A stretch of 64,000 bases of DNA. Origin: Mucilaginibacter defluvii. GTDB taxonomy: Bacteria; Bacteroidota; Bacteroidia; Sphingobacteriales; Sphingobacteriaceae. Shown here piece by piece: positions 19,058 through 59,413 of this stretch; positions within the stretch are counted from its first letter, which is position 1, and each line of letters starts with the position of its first letter. The notes under the pieces are model-generated. The model searched no databases. It was not told where the DNA came from and worked only from the letters and a program-made list of their open reading frames with translations. Where the stretch lies: assembly GCF_039543225.1 (NCBI RefSeq), contig NZ_BAABJI010000002.1:1550001-1614000 (forward strand), given 5' to 3'. A program made the translations under genes and the position numbers.

Positions 19058-20005
19058 TTATTTTTTTATAATGAAATCAACTACAGCCGGTTCTATTTTA
19101 ACAATGCGGCAGTAAGGGGGCGTGCGTTTTATTTTTACGGGAAGGGCATGATACCCCTTCTGCTCCCACAAGCTCAGGTCGGCCGTTGCCTCAAAAAAGG
19201 CATCATCCATATCAGGGTAGTCGGTTAACGAAGTCATGAACGTAACTTTCACTTTTTGCGGCAATACCTTAACGTTATAGTAGTGTGGATTATTGATAAC
19301 CTTAACCGGTATATCGAGTGTTTTTTCGGTAAATTCATCAACCGGTATTTTTACCTGTATGGTTTTAGGGTAAACCGTCATGTTCACTTCTTTTACCGAT
19401 TGCATTTTTAGCTGCTTGCTTACCGGCTCACTCACGTTATCCAACTGCAGGGTATCGGTATTCCAGGATGTTATCCGGCTGATCAGTTCCGACGGCCCGC
19501 TAATCGTTACATAATCGGGTTTTAGCACAATATCTCCTGATTGCGCGAACTGCTTCTTATAATCAATAGAAGTAATTAACTCAACCGGCACTTTTTTCAC
19601 CCTGCGGCTCGAGAAATCGAAATATAACGTATCCGGATCAAAGCCGATGATTTGCCGGTTTTGGGGTTGCGCGGCATTAATGCGGCGCATTTGCGACCCG
19701 AGTACCACATAATCGCGCTGATCAAGCGTATGCAAATCAACTGTCAGTTGACTCTCGTCATCGTTAAAACGCGAAAATAGCATTTGCCAGCCGTTACCCT
19801 GTACGGTTGCATTCACCGTGTCCGACTGTAGCGAGTGAAAAGCCCGGCGCTGCGGTGCATTTTTAAAAACGATAACTTTGGGCACCGTAAAATTATGCGG
19901 AGTTGAAAGCACAGCGAACACCCAGGCAACCACAGCCAGTATAATACAGGTTGTAAATGCCGTAAGCCGTCTGCGTTCTGCCGGTGATAATTTTATAATG
20001 GGCAT
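19058..20005 (-). CDS. YbbR-like domain protein
   Basis: A 315-residue protein with one N-terminal membrane helix (about 15-33, TAFTTCIILAVVAWVFAVLS) and a periplasmic part built of YbbR-type beta repeats, for example the segments around FTVPKVIVFKN, YKKQFAQSGDIVLKPDYVTI and VNMTVYPKTIQVKIPVDEF. In Firmicutes YbbR proteins stimulate cyclic di-AMP synthesis by CdaA. Here there is no cyclase gene adjacent, so the role is unknown. It lies between yajC and coaE in an order common in Bacteroidota, with its stop immediately next to the coaE start. Confidence 0.85.
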   Translation of the reverse strand: MPIIKLSPAERRRLTAFTTCIILAVVAWVFAVLSTPHNFTVPKVIVFKNAPQRRAFHSLQSDTVNATVQGNGWQMLFSRFNDDESQLTVDLHTLDQRDYVVLGSQMRRINAAQPQNRQIIGFDPDTLYFDFSSRRVKKVPVELITSIDYKKQFAQSGDIVLKPDYVTISGPSELISRITSWNTDTLQLDNVSEPVSKQLKMQSVKEVNMTVYPKTIQVKIPVDEFTEKTLDIPVKVINNPHYYNVKVLPQKVKVTFMTSLTDYPDMDDAFFEATADLSLWEQKGYHALPVKIKRTPPYCRIVKIEPAVVDFIIKK

Positions 20006-20071
20006 CGTTATAAATTAAAATGCCGTTCAATTTATTAAAACTGAACGGCACAATAAATTTAACAACTTATT

Positions 20072-20362
20072 TTATGATTTTGTTGCTACCGGTGCGTTAA
20101 GCGCCTTTGAGGCATCAAGCGAGATAGAGGTTTTATCAAAACGGATTTTGGTGCCACCCTCAACTTCAATAAGTATGGTAGTATCAGCCAATTCAATTAT
20201 ACGGCCGTGTATGCCTGCCGTTGTAACTATTTTGTCTCCTTTTTTAAGGTCTTCAACAAATTTTTTCTGGTCTTTTTGTTTTTTGATCTGCGGACGTATC
20301 ATAAAAAAGTAGAACACCAATATGATGAGGCCCATCATAATGAGTTGTTGCGGATTACCCAT
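20072..20362 (-). CDS. yajC: YajC, preprotein translocase subunit
   Basis: A 96-residue membrane protein with one N-terminal helix (MMGLIILVFYFFMIRPQIKK) followed by the YajC signature FMIRPQIKKQKDQKKFVEDL. Then comes the conserved KGDKIVTTAGIHGRIIELAD and an SH3-like beta segment. It associates with SecDF and the Sec translocon. The short C-terminal tail (KALNAPVATKS) is variable in the family. The gene is in the nusB-to-coaE operon, 38 bases downstream of the DUF1573 gene and 66 bases upstream of the YbbR gene. Confidence 0.95.
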   Translation of the reverse strand: MGNPQQLIMMGLIILVFYFFMIRPQIKKQKDQKKFVEDLKKGDKIVTTAGIHGRIIELADTTILIEVEGGTKIRFDKTSISLDASKALNAPVATKS

Positions 20363-20400
20363 AGTTTTGTATTTAAATGTTTAAATTAATATGCGGTTTA

Positions 20401-20850
20401 TTACTTGGCTACCACTTCGCCCACCAGGTGTACTACGGTTTGCGCGGGCACTGTGTTAGCGGTAACGGTTATCAGCTTATCCTGCAAGCCTGATTTGTTG
20501 GCGCTGTCAAACGTAACCTTAATAGCTGCGCTCTCTCCCGGTTTAACCGGTGTTTTTGGCCACTCAGGCACCGTACAGCCGCAGCTTGCAGTTGCATTGG
20601 TAATTACCAACGGAGATTTGCCCGTATTGGTAAACTTGTACTCAAAATTTACTTTTTCGCCTTGTTTTATTTTACCAAAATCATGCGTTTCGTTTTCAAA
20701 CTTAGCAACCGGCGCATTAGCTGAGTCAACCTCCGTTATGGCAGCGCTATTGCTATTGGTATCAATACTTTCCGTATTAGATGAATTACGCTGATTACAA
20801 GCTGTCAAAATGATAGCAGAGACAGCCAGGGTAAAAAATACTTTTTTCAT
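20401..20850 (-). CDS. DUF1573 lipoprotein
   Basis: A 149-residue lipoprotein: signal MKKVFFTLAVSAIILTAC with the lipobox Cys at 18, a short Ser/Asn linker, then a DUF1573 domain (Ig-like fold): FENETHDFGKIKQGEKVNFE, then YKFTNTGKSPLVITNATASC, then GCTVPEWPKTPVKPGESAAI. The ASCGCT motif and the following PxxPGES are the family mark. Such proteins are common and uncharacterised in Bacteroidota. I use the start at 20850 rather than 20874, since the earlier ATG would put eight extra residues before the signal. It is the second gene of the operon, after nusB. Confidence 0.9.
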   Translation of the reverse strand: MKKVFFTLAVSAIILTACNQRNSSNTESIDTNSNSAAITEVDSANAPVAKFENETHDFGKIKQGEKVNFEYKFTNTGKSPLVITNATASCGCTVPEWPKTPVKPGESAAIKVTFDSANKSGLQDKLITVTANTVPAQTVVHLVGEVVAK

Positions 20851-22033: not shown

Positions 22034-23818
22034 ATGAAACACCTGGCTTACCTTAATAAATTCTTTATTAAATACCGATGGCGTTTATTGCCGGGTATAC
22101 TTTTCGTCGTGGCATCCAATATTTTTGGTGTACTGCCGGCGCAGGTTATCCGCGTTGCGTTTGACCTGGTTGCCGAGAACATCGATCTTTACCGACTTTA
22201 TGACGGCTTTAACCGCCAGCAGGTAATCTATGATATTTTCGGATCGAGCCTGCTGCTGTTTGGTTTGCTGGTGTTGGCGCTTGCCCTTATCAGGGGCATG
22301 TTCTTGTTTTTTATGCGGCAAACCATCATCCTCATGTCGCGGCATATTGAGTACGATCTGAAGAACGAGATATACAGCCACTATCAGGCATTATCAATGG
22401 CATTTTACCGCCGCCACAACACCGGCGACCTGATGAACCGCGTAACCGAAGATGTAAGCCGTGTGCGCATGTACCTGGGCCCGGGCATTATGTATACCGT
22501 GAATACAGTGGTGTTGTTTATTTTGGTGATATACGCCATGCTTACGGTGAACGTTAAGCTGGCTATTTATTCGGTGCTGCCTATGCCCATACTGGCGGGC
22601 ATCATCTATTATGTAAATAACATCATTAACACCCGGAGCGAGAAGATTCAGGAACGTTTATCATCTCTTTCGGGTTTTGTGCAGGAGACCTTTTCGGGCA
22701 TCCGCGTAGTAAAATCATACGTTCGCGAAGCCTTTATACGCAAAAGCTTTGCCGCAGAGAGCGAGGATTATAAAATCCACTCCATGGAGCTGGCGCGTGT
22801 GCAGGCCCTGTTTTTTCCGCTGATGCTTTTATTGGTTGGTTTAAGCAATGTTATTGTGTTGTATGTTGGCGGCGTTGAGGTGATGAACGGTAACATCACG
22901 CCCGGTAATATAGCGGAGTTTATTGTTTACCTCAGTCAATTAATGTTCCCTGTAATGGCGTTGGGTTGGGTAACGTCATTAATACAACGAGCCGCAGCTT
23001 CGCAAAAGCGCATTAACGAGTTTTTGCACGAGCAACCGGAGATCATTTCCGTAAACGGCATCAAAACTACAGTTAAAGGGCATATTGAATTCAATAAGGT
23101 ATCCTTCACCTATCCCGAAACAGGCATTAAAGCGCTCAATGAGGTATCGTTCAGTATAAAACCGGGGCAAATGCTGGCAATTATCGGGCGTACGGGTTCG
23201 GGCAAATCAACCATTGCTAACCTGCTGATGCGCATGTATGATGCTACCGGAGGCGAAGTATTGATTGACGGTACGCCGATAAATAAGCTCGATCTGGACA
23301 CCTACCGCTCGCAAACCGGATTTGTACCGCAATCCATCTTCCTGTTTTCAGATACCATTGCCCGTAACATAGCCTTTGCTATTGATGTAATGGATATGCC
23401 AAGGGTTGAGCAGGCAGCTAAAGATGCCGCTGTATACAACAACATTATTGAGCTTGAACAGGGCTTTGACACCATGATAGGCGAACGGGGCATCACCCTA
23501 TCCGGCGGGCAAAAGCAGCGCGTGTCCATCGCCCGCGCCATACTGAAACATCCGCAGATCATGGTGTTTGATGATTGCCTTTCGGCTGTTGACACCCGTA
23601 CCGAGGAAGAGATATTGAATAACCTCGGGAAAGTGATGCAGGGCAAAACCAGCATCATTATAGCGCACCGCATTTCAACCATAAAAAATGCCGACCATAT
23701 ATTAGTGCTTGATGAAGGCCGCATTATAGAACAAGGAAATCACCATACGTTAATGGATAAGAAAGGCGCCTACTTTGCTTTGTACGAAAAGCAATTACTC
23801 GAAGAAGAAAATGCCTGA
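22034..23818 (+). CDS. ABC exporter, fused permease and ATPase
   Basis: A 594-residue half-transporter: six membrane helices in residues 1-330, then the ATPase. Walker A is IIGRTGSGKST, the Q-loop follows, the signature is TLSGGQKQR, and Walker B is MVFDDCLSAVD. The residue after the Walker B aspartate is Asp, not the usual catalytic Glu. The switch His is in IAHRIS. It may export lipid (MsbA-like) or drugs (multidrug exporters such as B. subtilis YheI/BmrC). The DD site resembles the degenerate half of heterodimeric exporters, but no second half is adjacent. The gene is divergent from nusB, with 149 bases between them. Confidence 0.93.
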   Translation: MKHLAYLNKFFIKYRWRLLPGILFVVASNIFGVLPAQVIRVAFDLVAENIDLYRLYDGFNRQQVIYDIFGSSLLLFGLLVLALALIRGMFLFFMRQTIILMSRHIEYDLKNEIYSHYQALSMAFYRRHNTGDLMNRVTEDVSRVRMYLGPGIMYTVNTVVLFILVIYAMLTVNVKLAIYSVLPMPILAGIIYYVNNIINTRSEKIQERLSSLSGFVQETFSGIRVVKSYVREAFIRKSFAAESEDYKIHSMELARVQALFFPLMLLLVGLSNVIVLYVGGVEVMNGNITPGNIAEFIVYLSQLMFPVMALGWVTSLIQRAAASQKRINEFLHEQPEIISVNGIKTTVKGHIEFNKVSFTYPETGIKALNEVSFSIKPGQMLAIIGRTGSGKSTIANLLMRMYDATGGEVLIDGTPINKLDLDTYRSQTGFVPQSIFLFSDTIARNIAFAIDVMDMPRVEQAAKDAAVYNNIIELEQGFDTMIGERGITLSGGQKQRVSIARAILKHPQIMVFDDCLSAVDTRTEEEILNNLGKVMQGKTSIIIAHRISTIKNADHILVLDEGRIIEQGNHHTLMDKKGAYFALYEKQLLEEENA

Positions 23819-25759: not shown

Positions 25760-27130
25760 TTAAAGCATTATACCCCGCAGCAGCATTACCGCTATTGAAA
25801 AGTAGATCACCAAGCCGGTAACATCTACCAGTGTAGCCACAAACGGCGCGGACGATGTGGCAGGGTCGGCACCCAGGCGTTTAAGCAGAATAGGTAGCAT
25901 AGAGCCACTTAATGACCCCCATAACACCACCCCTATCAACGTAATACCTACGGTTAGCCCCACTAAAAACCAGTGCGGGCCATATATATCCGAGAATAAA
26001 GACCACGCGTAGATTCTTAAAAAGCCGATACAGCCCAACACCAAACCAAGCATCAGCCCGGCCATGAGTTCGCGACGCATAACCCGCCACCAATCGCTCA
26101 GCGTAACCTCACCCAGTGCCATAGCCTGTATAATCAGCGTTGAAGCCTGCGAGCCGCTATTACCACCACTGGATATAATCAGCGGAATAAACAGGGCCAG
26201 CACCACGGCTTTTTCTATTTCCTTTTCAAAAAAGCCCATCGCGGTAGCGGTAAGCATCTCCCCTAAAAACAATATTACCAGCCAGCCCACACGTTTTTTT
26301 ACTAGTGTAAAAAGCGAAACATCCAAGTAAGGTTCATCCAAGGCTTCGGTACCACCAATTTTTTGAATATCCTCGGTATATTCTTCGTTGGCTATCCAAA
26401 GGATATCGTCCACCGTTACAATACCCAGCAGCACATTATCATCATCAACCACGGGCAGCGCCACACGGTTATTCATTCTGAAGGTATTAATGGCTTCTTC
26501 CTGCGGATCACTGGCACGCAGGGCAATCAGGCGGCCGTCCATCAGGTCGCTCACGCTGGTTTCGGGTTTTACAAGTAATATCTCGCGGATACGTATATCA
26601 TCCAGCAGTACGCGGTTATCATCAACCACATAAATCACATCAATGGTTTCGGAGTTTTTACCAAAGCGGCGGATGTGCGAAAGCACACGGTTAACATCCC
26701 AGTTTTTTTTTACGGCAATATAATCGGGCGTCATCAAACGGCCAACACTGTCCTCCTCATAACCCAAAAGGGATAACGCTTCCCGGCGATCGGCCGGCGG
26801 CAGGTGCAATATCAGCTTGGCTACGGCATCGCCATGCAGCTCACTGAAAAGTGCTGTACGGTCATCCGGCGGCAAGCCGTTAATAATCTCGGCTACCTTA
26901 CCTCCTGAAATTTTTTTGATTATACGCTCCTGTTTGCGAAAGTCCAGTATCCTGAAAACGTTTACCGCACGGTTTACAGAGAGAATTTCGATAAATTTGG
27001 GGCCATGCTCCGGAAGCTCGTCTATCAGCTGTTCAACATCTGATATATTCAGGTTGTTCAGGTACTCCTGTAGCGCCGCATCATCTTCCTGCTCCAGTAT
27101 TAATTCTACCTGTTCAACCATTTCTTCCAT
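25760..27130 (-). CDS. mgtE: MgtE magnesium transporter
   Basis: A 456-residue Mg2+ channel/transporter. The cytoplasmic N-domain has MgtE repeats (EYLNNLNISDVEQLIDELPE, KLILHLPPADRREALSLLGY), then two CBS domains about 135-255 (MTPDYIAVKKNW and VVDDDNVLLGIVTVDDILWI). The membrane domain begins near 285 with five helices, including LIISSGGNSGSQASTLIIQA, the conserved pore motif. It is a normal full-length member. It is convergent with the Crp/Fnr gene, 5 bases apart, so the two transcripts probably overlap. Confidence 0.96.
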   Translation of the reverse strand: MEEMVEQVELILEQEDDAALQEYLNNLNISDVEQLIDELPEHGPKFIEILSVNRAVNVFRILDFRKQERIIKKISGGKVAEIINGLPPDDRTALFSELHGDAVAKLILHLPPADRREALSLLGYEEDSVGRLMTPDYIAVKKNWDVNRVLSHIRRFGKNSETIDVIYVVDDNRVLLDDIRIREILLVKPETSVSDLMDGRLIALRASDPQEEAINTFRMNNRVALPVVDDDNVLLGIVTVDDILWIANEEYTEDIQKIGGTEALDEPYLDVSLFTLVKKRVGWLVILFLGEMLTATAMGFFEKEIEKAVVLALFIPLIISSGGNSGSQASTLIIQAMALGEVTLSDWWRVMRRELMAGLMLGLVLGCIGFLRIYAWSLFSDIYGPHWFLVGLTVGITLIGVVLWGSLSGSMLPILLKRLGADPATSSAPFVATLVDVTGLVIYFSIAVMLLRGIML

Positions 27131-27215
27131 AAGCCCCTCTTTTTACATTTTTATAACCTGATTTTCCGCTGGCAAAAGTCGTTTATTTTTTCAAAATACA
27201 GGAATTTTTTTGTGT

Positions 27216-27223
27216 TATCTTTG
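27216..27223 (+). promoter_or_regulatory. -7 box TATCTTTG of ychF
   Basis: Exact TAnnTTTG match. It predicts a start near 27230 and so a leader of about 95 bases that would contain the long inverted repeat at 27235-27314. Confidence 0.6.
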
Positions 27224-27234
27224 CGGCGTTTTCA

Positions 27235-27314
27235 AGTCCATAGCCCATAGACCATTGTCGATGGCAAAAAGCAACTTAACCAGGCTATGGACCATCGGCT
27301 ATCGACTATGGACT
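27235..27314 (+). repeat. Heptad-repeat inverted repeat in the ychF leader
   Basis: The 27-base arm at 27235-27261 pairs imperfectly with 27288-27314; the loop is 26 bases. The left arm reads as 7-base units TCCATAG, CCCATAG, ACCATTG, TCGATGG, and the right arm on its opposite strand reads TCCATAG, TCGATAG, CCGATGG, TCCATAG. The hairpin would sit in the mRNA leader, 12 bases before the start codon. Confidence 0.75.
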
Positions 27315-27325
27315 GTTAGAAACAA

Positions 27326-28426
27326 ATGGGTTTACAATGTGGTATAGTAGGTTTGCCGAATGTGGGCAAGTCAACACTTTTTAATTGCTTATCAAACGCG
27401 AAGGCGCAGGCTGCCAACTTTCCGTTTTGTACTATTGAGCCCAATGTGGGTGTAATTACCGTTCCGGATGAGCGCCTTACCAAGCTTACCGAACTGGTAA
27501 ATCCAAAAAACGTAGTGCCTAACGTTATCGAGATTGTTGATATTGCGGGCCTGGTAAAAGGTGCAAGCAAGGGCGAAGGTTTGGGCAACCAGTTTTTAGC
27601 CAACATCCGTGCTACCAATGCTATCATCCACGTATTGCGTTGCTTTGATAACGATAACGTAATTCACGTTGACGGCTCGGTTGACCCGATCCGTGATAAG
27701 GAAATTATTGATACCGAATTGCAATTAAAGGACCTTGACTCGATAGAGAAAAAGATCCAAAAGATAGAAAAGGCCGCCAAAGTAGGTAACGATAAGGAAG
27801 CCAAAAAGGCTTTCGAGGTGTTAACCACCTACAAAAACCACCTGCTTTCGGGCAAATCGGCACGTACCGCGCCTGTTGAAGAAGATGATAAGGAACACAT
27901 CGCTGATATATGGCTGCTTACCGCCAAACCGGTAATGTATGTTTGTAATGTTGGCGAAGCCGAAGTAAATACCGGCAATGCTTACGTTGAAGCCGTACGC
28001 GAAGCAGTAAAGGAAGAGAACGCCGAGGTGCTGATCATATCGGCACAGATAGAATCGGAGATCGCTCAACTGGAAACTTACGAAGAACGTGAGATGTTTT
28101 TGGAAGATCTTGGTCTTGCCGAATCGGGCGTTAACAAGCTGATAAAAGCGGCTTACAAACTGCTTAACCTGGCTACCTACTTTACCGCCGGTGTGCAGGA
28201 AGTACGCGCATGGACCATTACCCAAGGCTTTACCGCCCCGCAAGCCGCAGGTGTTATCCACACCGACTTTGAAAAAGGCTTTATTCGCGCCGAGGTAATT
28301 AAGTATAAGGATTTTGTACACTACGGCTCAGAAGCCGCCTGCAAAGAAGCTGGTAAATTATCCGTTGAGGGCAAAACTTATATTGTTGAGGACGGTGATA
28401 TTATGCACTTTAGATTTAATGTGTAA
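27326..28426 (+). CDS. ychF: YchF, redox-regulated ATPase
   Basis: A 366-residue Obg-family P-loop protein that hydrolyses ATP in preference to GTP and associates with ribosomes. G1 is GLPNVGKSTLFNCL at 8-21. The central G3 region is IVDIAGLVKGASKGEGLGNQ, followed by a helical coiled-coil domain (about 130-200). A TGS domain ends the protein (GFIRAEVIKYKDFVHYGSEA, VEDGDIMHFRFNV). This is the normal length and order. It has its own promoter with a structured leader and is followed by a terminator at 28577-28605. Confidence 0.97.
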   Translation: MGLQCGIVGLPNVGKSTLFNCLSNAKAQAANFPFCTIEPNVGVITVPDERLTKLTELVNPKNVVPNVIEIVDIAGLVKGASKGEGLGNQFLANIRATNAIIHVLRCFDNDNVIHVDGSVDPIRDKEIIDTELQLKDLDSIEKKIQKIEKAAKVGNDKEAKKAFEVLTTYKNHLLSGKSARTAPVEEDDKEHIADIWLLTAKPVMYVCNVGEAEVNTGNAYVEAVREAVKEENAEVLIISAQIESEIAQLETYEEREMFLEDLGLAESGVNKLIKAAYKLLNLATYFTAGVQEVRAWTITQGFTAPQAAGVIHTDFEKGFIRAEVIKYKDFVHYGSEAACKEAGKLSVEGKTYIVEDGDIMHFRFNV

Positions 28427-28435
28427 GCCCCCCAG

Positions 28436-28449
28436 CCCCCTGAAGGGGG
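28436..28449. repeat. Short CCCCC-TGAA-GGGGG hairpin after ychF
   Basis: A 5-base GC hairpin 10 bases after the ychF stop codon. Similar C-rich/G-rich pieces are common between genes in Bacteroidota; no T-run follows, so it is a weak terminator candidate. Confidence 0.4.
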
Positions 28450-28469
28450 AGTTAAACTAAATAACTTCT

Positions 28470-28553
28470 TGTCATTCCGAACGGTAGAGAGGAATCTGTC
28501 TGCGTTCATAAATAAGCGGACAGATTTCTCCTCGTACCTCGTGCGAAATGACA
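28470..28553. repeat. Imperfect palindromic intergenic element
   Basis: The left arm (28470-28503) starts TGTCATTCCGAACGGTAGAG and the right arm (28515-28553) ends GTGCGAAATGACACA. The right arm read on the opposite strand is TGTCATTTCGCACGAGG and so on, matching the left arm over most of its length with several mismatches. It resembles the dispersed TGTCATTTCGA-type palindromes of Bacteroidota genomes. Confidence 0.65.
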
Positions 28554-28576
28554 CATAAAATTTATATATAACATAC

Positions 28577-58771: not shown

Positions 58772-59413
58772 ATGACCACGATAGTTATACGCTCCTGCCT
58801 TTTATCATTATTATTCATTTTAATTACCTGCGGTTTCAGCAAAGCAGAAAACAATATTAAGATAGATGCCGATTTATCTCGCGGTGCCGTCCGCATCAAA
58901 TCTGTTTATCTGATAGATGCGGGAATAACGGTTTATATTGACAACCTTGGCCGCTTGCGCGATGTTTATGCAGATAATACCGACAGTTATTACGACCCCA
59001 TACATACCGAAGATACCTTCAGCTTCGGCGAGGTTGAATATTACCCGCATGACTATATTTTTGATGAATTAAGCGACCGCTTAAAGCGAATAGGCAATTT
59101 AAACATTACTTATTATGACCGTTTCAGTTGGGATGAGCTGCGGGGTAAAATCAAATCCATTGGCAACGTAAACTTTACTTATTATGACCGTTTTGGTTGG
59201 GACGAAACCAAAGGGCTGATCAAATCAATCGGCAATGTGAACATTACTTATTATGATCGCTTTGGCTGCGATGAGGATAAGGGAAAGATTAAAAGCATAG
59301 GCAACACAACATTTACTTATATGGGACGGGCTGTTCAGGTTAACGGCTACGACAAAAACGGGGTGCTAAATCTTCGCCGTTCGGACGCAAGACAATCAGC
59401 CTTTGTTGATTGA
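58772..59413 (+). CDS. Exported protein with 23-residue tandem repeats
   Basis: A 213-residue protein with a signal peptide (SCLLSLLFILITCGFSKA|E). After an N-terminal part of about 75 residues come three and a half tandem 23-residue repeats: residues 102-124, 125-147, 148-170 and a degenerate 171-194. The unit is G-x-I-K-S-I-G-N-V-N-x-T-Y-Y-D-R-F-G-W-D-E-x-K. The aromatic/Asp pattern YYDRF suggests a repeating beta-strand surface, perhaps calcium- or glycan-binding; that is inference. Relatives with the same SIGN-x-x-x-YY motif occur in Sphingobacteria as uncharacterised proteins, to my memory. It follows the tRNA terminator and stands alone. Confidence 0.75.
   Translation: MTTIVIRSCLLSLLFILITCGFSKAENNIKIDADLSRGAVRIKSVYLIDAGITVYIDNLGRLRDVYADNTDSYYDPIHTEDTFSFGEVEYYPHDYIFDELSDRLKRIGNLNITYYDRFSWDELRGKIKSIGNVNFTYYDRFGWDETKGLIKSIGNVNITYYDRFGCDEDKGKIKSIGNTTFTYMGRAVQVNGYDKNGVLNLRRSDARQSAFVD

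Follow-up and report, generated by a model that had tools for sequence, protein, structure and literature searches.

In this study, we analysed a 64,000-nucleotide stretch of the Mucilaginibacter defluvii genome (the window), in which the gene ychF is preceded by a promoter box, an imperfect hairpin built of 7-base units and an A-rich stretch, with a divergent transporter gene upstream of them (Table 1). An earlier sequence-only reading had reported such a hairpin behind a clear -7 box, and both the structure and the box are real. That reading gave the pairing as 27 positions; measured over the two 31-nt arms, 24 of 31 positions (77%) are complementary. It had also placed the end of the hairpin 12 bases before the start; 11 bases lie between the last arm base and the ychF ATG at 27326. 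Its unit patterns NCCATAG and NCGATGG are borne out as heptads, but the general unit is wider, consisting of a core CNATNG and one spacer base, with four units per arm. Among the best 80 named genomes matched, the ychF of Mucilaginibacter roseus shows 98% identity.

Table 1. Features of the ychF leader and its neighbouring genes (window coordinates).
Feature	Position	Strand	Basis
-7 promoter box of ychF, TATCTTTG	27216-27223	+	Sequence; TAnnTTTG box 5' of ychF in 89 of 89 genus leaders examined
5' arm; four heptads in register at 27238-27264 (CCATAG, CCATAG, CCATTG, CGATGG)	27235-27265	+	Arm pairing and unit scan
Loop, 18 nt	27266-27283	+	Arm pairing
3' arm; four heptads at 27285-27311 (CTATGG, CCATCG, CTATCG, CTATGG)	27284-27314	+	Arm pairing and unit scan
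A-rich stretch next to the start codon, left unpaired by the RNA fold	27315-27325	+	Sequence and predicted fold
ychF, 366 aa, YchF-GTPase_C (PF06071) and MMR_HSR1 (PF01926)	27326-28426	+	ORF and Pfam
MgtE-type divalent cation transporter, divergent neighbour of ychF	25760-27130	-	ORF and Pfam

The predicted RNA fold of the leader hairpin has an energy of -29 kcal/mol (z -3.4), and an equally stable fold was obtained in 1 of 200 shuffles. Folded as DNA, the same strand is weaker (-13.5 kcal/mol, z -2.2). Period 7 in this leader exceeds its shuffles (0 of 100 as high), and the pattern of at least two CNATNG units in register has six matches in the 64-kb window, all inside the two arms. A chance origin of the hairpin was rejected on the basis of the shuffled folds, the uniqueness within the window and the genome matches against a control described below.

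Hairpins are frequent in the same leader across the genus. The leader set comprises 89 ychF leaders from 89 of 100 genus genomes, including that of M. defluvii; in the other 11 genomes, the ychF match was not full or the leader was not fetched. The predicted fold has z < -2 in 70 of the 89 leaders (mean z -3.84) and z ≥ -2 in 19, and in 65 leaders at most 1 of 100 shuffles was equally stable. Significant periodicity (no more than 5 of 100 shuffles reaching the value) was detected in 62 leaders, with period 7 in 42, period 9 in 14 and period 8 in 6. The geometry was measured in 62 leaders with clear arms: the arms are about 30 nt long, begin a median of 13.5 nt past the box and end 14 nt before the ATG.

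We compared 67 ychF spacers (a number set by length limits) with 538 other spacers, all from the ychF neighbourhood, in one pipeline with 40 shuffles. The mean z was -2.87 for the ychF spacers versus -1.11 for the others, z < -2 occurred in 44 of 67 (66%) versus 25%, and periodicity in 58% versus 12%. The ychF spacers are thus occupied far more often than their neighbours, and purely random scatter is not a sufficient explanation. Unstructured spacers do exist nearby, such as that before DUF3276 (mean z -0.26, n = 49), and the spacer before ybbR is stronger than that of ychF (mean z -4.18; 24 of 27 with z < -2 and 13 of 27 with period 7). Judged by eye, a plain terminator-like hairpin in this spacer alternates with heptad hairpins of yet other units, similar to AAAGGCG or AAAGCTT, and the heptad type stands in most of the 27 ybbR spacers listed. 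The M. defluvii copy of this spacer (window 19980-20460, minus strand) has a terminator-like hairpin (TGCCGTTCAG...TTGAACGGCATTTT) between ybbR and a short ORF that looks yajC-like by eye. Among the relatives' leaders of an ABC transporter gene (window 22034-23818), several carry 8-nt repeats such as ACTTTCGG/ACTTACCG between promoter and ATG; a strong hairpin is mostly missing, with 8 of 36 leaders reaching z < -2.

The letters of the ychF leader often differ entirely even between close relatives. Leaders were labelled by pattern according to their unit vocabulary; 18 of 89 were "other" in the tree analysis and 35 of 89 were unassigned in the copy-number test described below. Two leaders (L116 and L122) match two vocabularies and were filed in the first, and by eye they are closer to TTNATNG; five TTNATNG-labelled leaders also match the TTGATT pattern. 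On the ychF gene tree, in which 36 of 86 inner branches are starred and many branches are weakly supported, the label (seven classes) requires at least 49 changes over 89 tips, compared with a shuffled mean of 56.7 (0 of 200 as low). The label differs in 13 of 30 pairs of near relatives (coding distance ≤ 0.12). Twelve of these 13 pairs, which come from four groups of relatives, score 19 or less in the leader, approximately the shuffle level, and 8 of the 12 are not above the best of 30 shuffles, with promoters 89-100% identical; same-label pairs score at least 29. The leaders of the thirteenth pair (L129/L132) are clearly homologous. In alignments of near relatives, the promoter is almost constant through TTTGC and is followed immediately by unrelated sequence.

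Replacement judged by window score was found in 13 of 20 pair comparisons for ychF and in 46 of 102 for other spacers. Exchange is therefore not special to ychF, whereas the frequent hairpin is, and spacers turn over rapidly in this genus in general. The 19 weak leaders (z ≥ -2) require 17 changes on the ychF tree, indicating that they are scattered rather than derived from one old loss, and that hairpins are lost or regained as well as exchanged. Neither a transposase nor a target duplication nor a clean pre-insertion site in a sister species was found.

The unit of the M. defluvii hairpin is dispersed. Three CNATNG units in register give 30 exact matches in its own genome, at 14 places, versus 3 matches in the reversed control. 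Across the genus, one or more CNATNG matches occur in 85 of 100 genomes, M. defluvii among them; the counts run from 0 to 189 per genome, and genomes with one to five are near the control level. Three further vocabularies were first noticed in the ychF leaders of relatives and then found dispersed genome-wide, with at least one match in 91 (CAAGANN), 90 (TTNATNG) and 41 (GTTGATTNN) of the 100 genomes; the controls for the vocabularies mostly gave 0-3 matches, with exceptions of up to 18 (G077, CNATNG), 9 (G103, CAAGANN) and 8 (G078, TTNATNG). The sequence-only reading had tied a mobile repeat to many copies elsewhere together with close relatives lacking the hairpin before ychF. The copies elsewhere are present, but most relatives still have a hairpin there, and many have a different one.

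We fetched 53 copies: the 13 other CNATNG places and one TTNATNG place of M. defluvii, and 39 from six relatives, which were picked from among the matches listed, the TTNATNG and CAAGANN ones being selected for having both arms. Gene calls around them were mechanical. Flanking genes could be called for 51 copies, of which 41 lie between co-directional, 7 between convergent and 3 between divergent genes, compared with 317, 135 and 144 background spacers, respectively (co-directional versus divergent, p = 4e-4). For the 41 co-directional copies, the median distance is 8 nt to the preceding stop and 16 nt to the called start that follows; with small overlaps counted, 27 lie no more than 30 nt from each of the two. 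Overlap with a called ORF was seen for three of the 53: one M. defluvii copy (L017) and one from a relative (L269), each overlapping a long ORF, and a long two-array span (L293).

Other families of the taxonomic class have their own heptad flavours, such as the long CAATGGG/CAATAGA array of L031 (G058:C16:56546-56642), CAATAGC in G051 and CAATGGA in G037. Directly 3' of ychF (window 28426-28560), a C-run/G-run pair (AGCCCCCTGAAGGGGGAG) resembles a hairpin type labelled in seven of the genus ychF leaders and is followed by an inverted pair (GTCATTCCGAAC...GAAATGACA); both resemble further dispersed repeats. A tandem repeat of period 69 with 3.1 copies is located at window 59090-59304; its period is a multiple of 3, and it is perhaps coding.

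Outside the genus, the ychF leader is more often short than long. In 40 genomes representing 21 further genera of the family, 18 leaders are shorter than 55 nt, 12 are longer and 10 have no recognisable box in reach, so that 18 of the 30 with a recognisable box are below 55 nt. The best 80 named ychF loci, five of them from Mucilaginibacter, include 35 leaders shorter than 55 nt and 22 without a box. A short leader is therefore the commoner state outside the genus, in agreement with Flavobacterium johnsoniae, for which the accessible part of one study reports leaders averaging 33 nt and structure near the start that tunes translation, in a phylum described there as being without Shine-Dalgarno sequences (PMC6847099). 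Of the 12 longer leaders, five reach z < -2 and five are significantly 7-periodic, (GGTGAAA)n and (CTGATGG)n being two examples. Periodicity was seen in all six leaders from named Pedobacter, with period 7 in five and period 8 in one; they are mostly tandem arrays, and one has z < -2. Long near-perfect arrays of (GGTGAAA)n and (GATGTGA)n were seen in the ychF leaders L168, L197 and L199, from two named Pedobacter and one relative. Heptad arrays thus seem to have arrived in the ychF leader on more than one occasion.

Three tests, on mismatch type, on the variable letters and on repeat load, argue against selection for an exact RNA fold. In the 62 leaders with clear arms, arm mismatches comprise 82 G.U and 91 A.C (p = 0.54). 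In 53 hairpins, the variable letters of the units were paired with the own arm or with the arm of other elements. The pairing was 0.537 with the own arm versus 0.622 with another element's arm for CNATNG, 0.495 versus 0.476 for CAAGANN (p = 0.36) and 0.65 versus 0.566 for TTNATNG (n = 10, p = 0.065). Against units shuffled within arms, CAAGANN pairs better (p = 0.022) and TTNATNG nearly so (p = 0.053). With no G.U excess and with variable letters paired not significantly better than by another element's arm, no selection on the exact RNA fold is visible. The hairpin z correlates with the total repeat load of the genome (Spearman -0.39, p = 2e-4, kinship ignored), and z < -2 was found in 6 of 13 low-load versus 64 of 76 higher-load genomes. 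The vocabulary of the leader is associated with the copy number of that vocabulary in the genome (p = 0.0135, 0.0065, 3e-4 and 5e-6, kinship ignored). Shared 7-mers amount to 0.096 for the same locus, 0.172 for the same genome and 0.016 for neither, where some divergent spacers may have been counted twice, and we base no conclusion on these values. Taken together, the fold tests, the repeat load and the vocabulary associations favour a DNA-level dispersed repeat.

We propose that the ychF hairpin is probably one copy of a class of dispersed heptad-repeat hairpins, and that this leader acquires or retains such elements repeatedly. A member of the class has a short loop flanked by convergent (inverted) arrays, each with about four degenerate 7-base units. 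The elements lie mostly in co-directional spacers, often near both the stop and the next start, or between promoter and start as at ychF, where the site is filled in most genus species examined and one vocabulary has repeatedly been traded for another. The promoter box suggests transcription; the ychF mRNA would then be predicted to carry an imperfect stem-loop close to its 5' end, with the A-rich start region left free. At the DNA level, the hairpin presumably either spreads or is renewed. It may be mainly tolerated, as in the mostly transcribed, promoter-free spacers that the class would occupy elsewhere, and any influence on mRNA stability or translation would be mild at most.

The chief rival is an element of structure alone, in which ychF would gain from any stem-loop between promoter and start, through mRNA stability or an open start region, so that hairpins are swapped and soon regained if lost. 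The high frequency of strong folds at the site (70 of 89, mean z -3.84) favours it, as do the numerous vocabulary changes on the tree, the like geometry of the clear-arm leaders and the lack of structure in several nearby spacers, such as that before DUF3276. We nevertheless consider it unlikely. The weak leaders are scattered (17 changes for 19 leaders) rather than the product of a single old loss, and some belong to low-repeat genomes (e.g., G003 and G098); many other genera have no hairpin, and the Pedobacter leaders are mostly tandem arrays. The absence of a G.U excess and of significantly better pairing than with the arms of other elements also speaks against it. The sequence-only reading had offered a regulatory RNA of ychF as one of two options. 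The frequency of the hairpin favours something at the site, but the sequence is often swapped wholesale, the variable letters of the arms pair not significantly better than with the arms of other elements, and hairpin strength tracks repeat load. A transcription attenuator or terminator, or a ligand-binding riboswitch, is hardly credible: the leader position and the stable predicted stem are compatible with it, as is the alternation of terminator-like and heptad hairpins before ybbR, but no shared loop or sequence core is visible among the leaders. Our terminator scan covers loops of 3-8 nt, and the 18-nt loop is outside its range. On reading, GTTAGAAACAAATG rather than a T run comes after the 3' arm, and a terminator was rejected on that ground; an Rfam family was likewise rejected, as covariance models gave 0 matches up to E = 1 at 26900-27500.

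The constancy of four letters in CNATNG while the rest vary, together with variable letters that pair no better than draws from other elements, could also reflect an array of degenerate heptads read by a DNA- or RNA-binding protein, which would conserve the unit letters rather than the stem; comparable degenerate heptads (GGGANTN) occur in Xanthomonas. This appears improbable, as the vocabulary differs among close relatives and several coexist per genome, and a single protein could hardly recognise all of them. The other option of the sequence-only reading, a dispersed REP-like element, holds as far as dispersion is concerned. In the strict sense of a REP/REPIN-type hairpin moved by a RAYT (Y1 HuH transposase), it would also fit short dispersed palindromes in intergenic spacers, and Y1_Tnp (PF01797) has matches in four of six genus genomes searched. 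We regard this form as very unlikely: M. defluvii (G000) and G083 have 0 Y1_Tnp matches, while both carry the ychF hairpin and have 30 and 66 CNATNG matches, respectively, and by reading neither of the tags GTAG and CGTC occurs in 27230-27320. The lack of a Y1_Tnp match in the M. defluvii genome led us to reject the RAYT/REP reading.

A more speculative possibility, which we hold with considerable doubt, is that the ychF leader is a "hairpin slot", in which selection or site-specific writing keeps placing a repeat-built stem-loop behind the near-invariant promoter. The sequence would have been swapped perhaps dozens of times in the genus, so that the letters would be irrelevant and the architecture inherited, and the heptad vocabularies would be the replacement pool, written by an activity that makes degenerate 7-nt units. 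The genus provides a replicated natural experiment, with one orthologous leader in 89 species and repeated hairpin exchange behind a near-constant promoter. One can thereby test whether hairpins in leaders have a function or are just tolerated in a phylum without Shine-Dalgarno sequences, and why 7-nt units are so common. It also advises caution, as a strong fold z-score of a single leader in such a genome need not imply a regulator.

Degenerate heptads also form part of a stem in the Nostoc tRNA-Leu(UAA) intron, a single intron rather than dispersed leaders. Our literature search, with most subscription journals outside its reach, found no report of such hairpins or of heptamer or tandem repeats in Mucilaginibacter, and a search on dispersed or inverted repeats in Bacteroidetes gave, judged by title, no relevant paper except that on TAACTGA. 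The accessible part of that paper describes TAACTGA direct repeats in Beggiatoaceae, Cyanobacteria and five Bacteroidetes; in the main genome (169 direct sets and one indirect) most of them directly precede start codons, and a translational role is proposed (PMC4679880). Heptamer arrays in Bacteroidetes, some with relatives that lack them, are common to both systems, but TAACTGA is a single unit sequence, and in the part of the source seen no orthologous site is traced across a genus. REP and REPIN elements share with the ychF hairpin that they are short, dispersed, gene-adjacent and in many cases plausibly transcribed (PMC3733652, PMC3116915, both in part). They differ in their tags, GTAG or CGTC, with GTAG repeats tied to RAYT transposases, and 7-nt periodicity is unmentioned in the accessible text of PMC3733652, which does allow for lost REPtrons and transposase-less CGTC repeats.

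Heptamer repeats are over-represented in many bacterial genomes and have been little studied, according to the available portion of a survey that describes the GGGAATC heptamers of Xanthomonas and Nostoc as dispersed intergenic arrays of a degenerate 7-nt unit, mostly of four units (PMC4692102). Two Xanthomonas genomes have 70 and 75 convergent pairs that are capable of forming stem-loops, the majority between co-directional ORFs, and these pairs are the nearest described counterpart of the ychF hairpin. Both systems have a 7-nt periodic degenerate unit, many mostly intergenic copies and convergent pairs. The unit sequence is not shared (GGGANTN versus CNATNGN), and as far as that source goes, Xanthomonas has one G-rich unit with quadruplex potential, whereas Mucilaginibacter has several vocabularies per genus and per genome. 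The Xanthomonas repeats are reported there to be closer, on average, to the ORF upstream (28 versus 160 nt), whereas the Mucilaginibacter copies are often near both neighbours. Unlike the GGGAATC repeats as described in that portion of the survey, the Mucilaginibacter hairpins fill one orthologous leader in most of the species examined.
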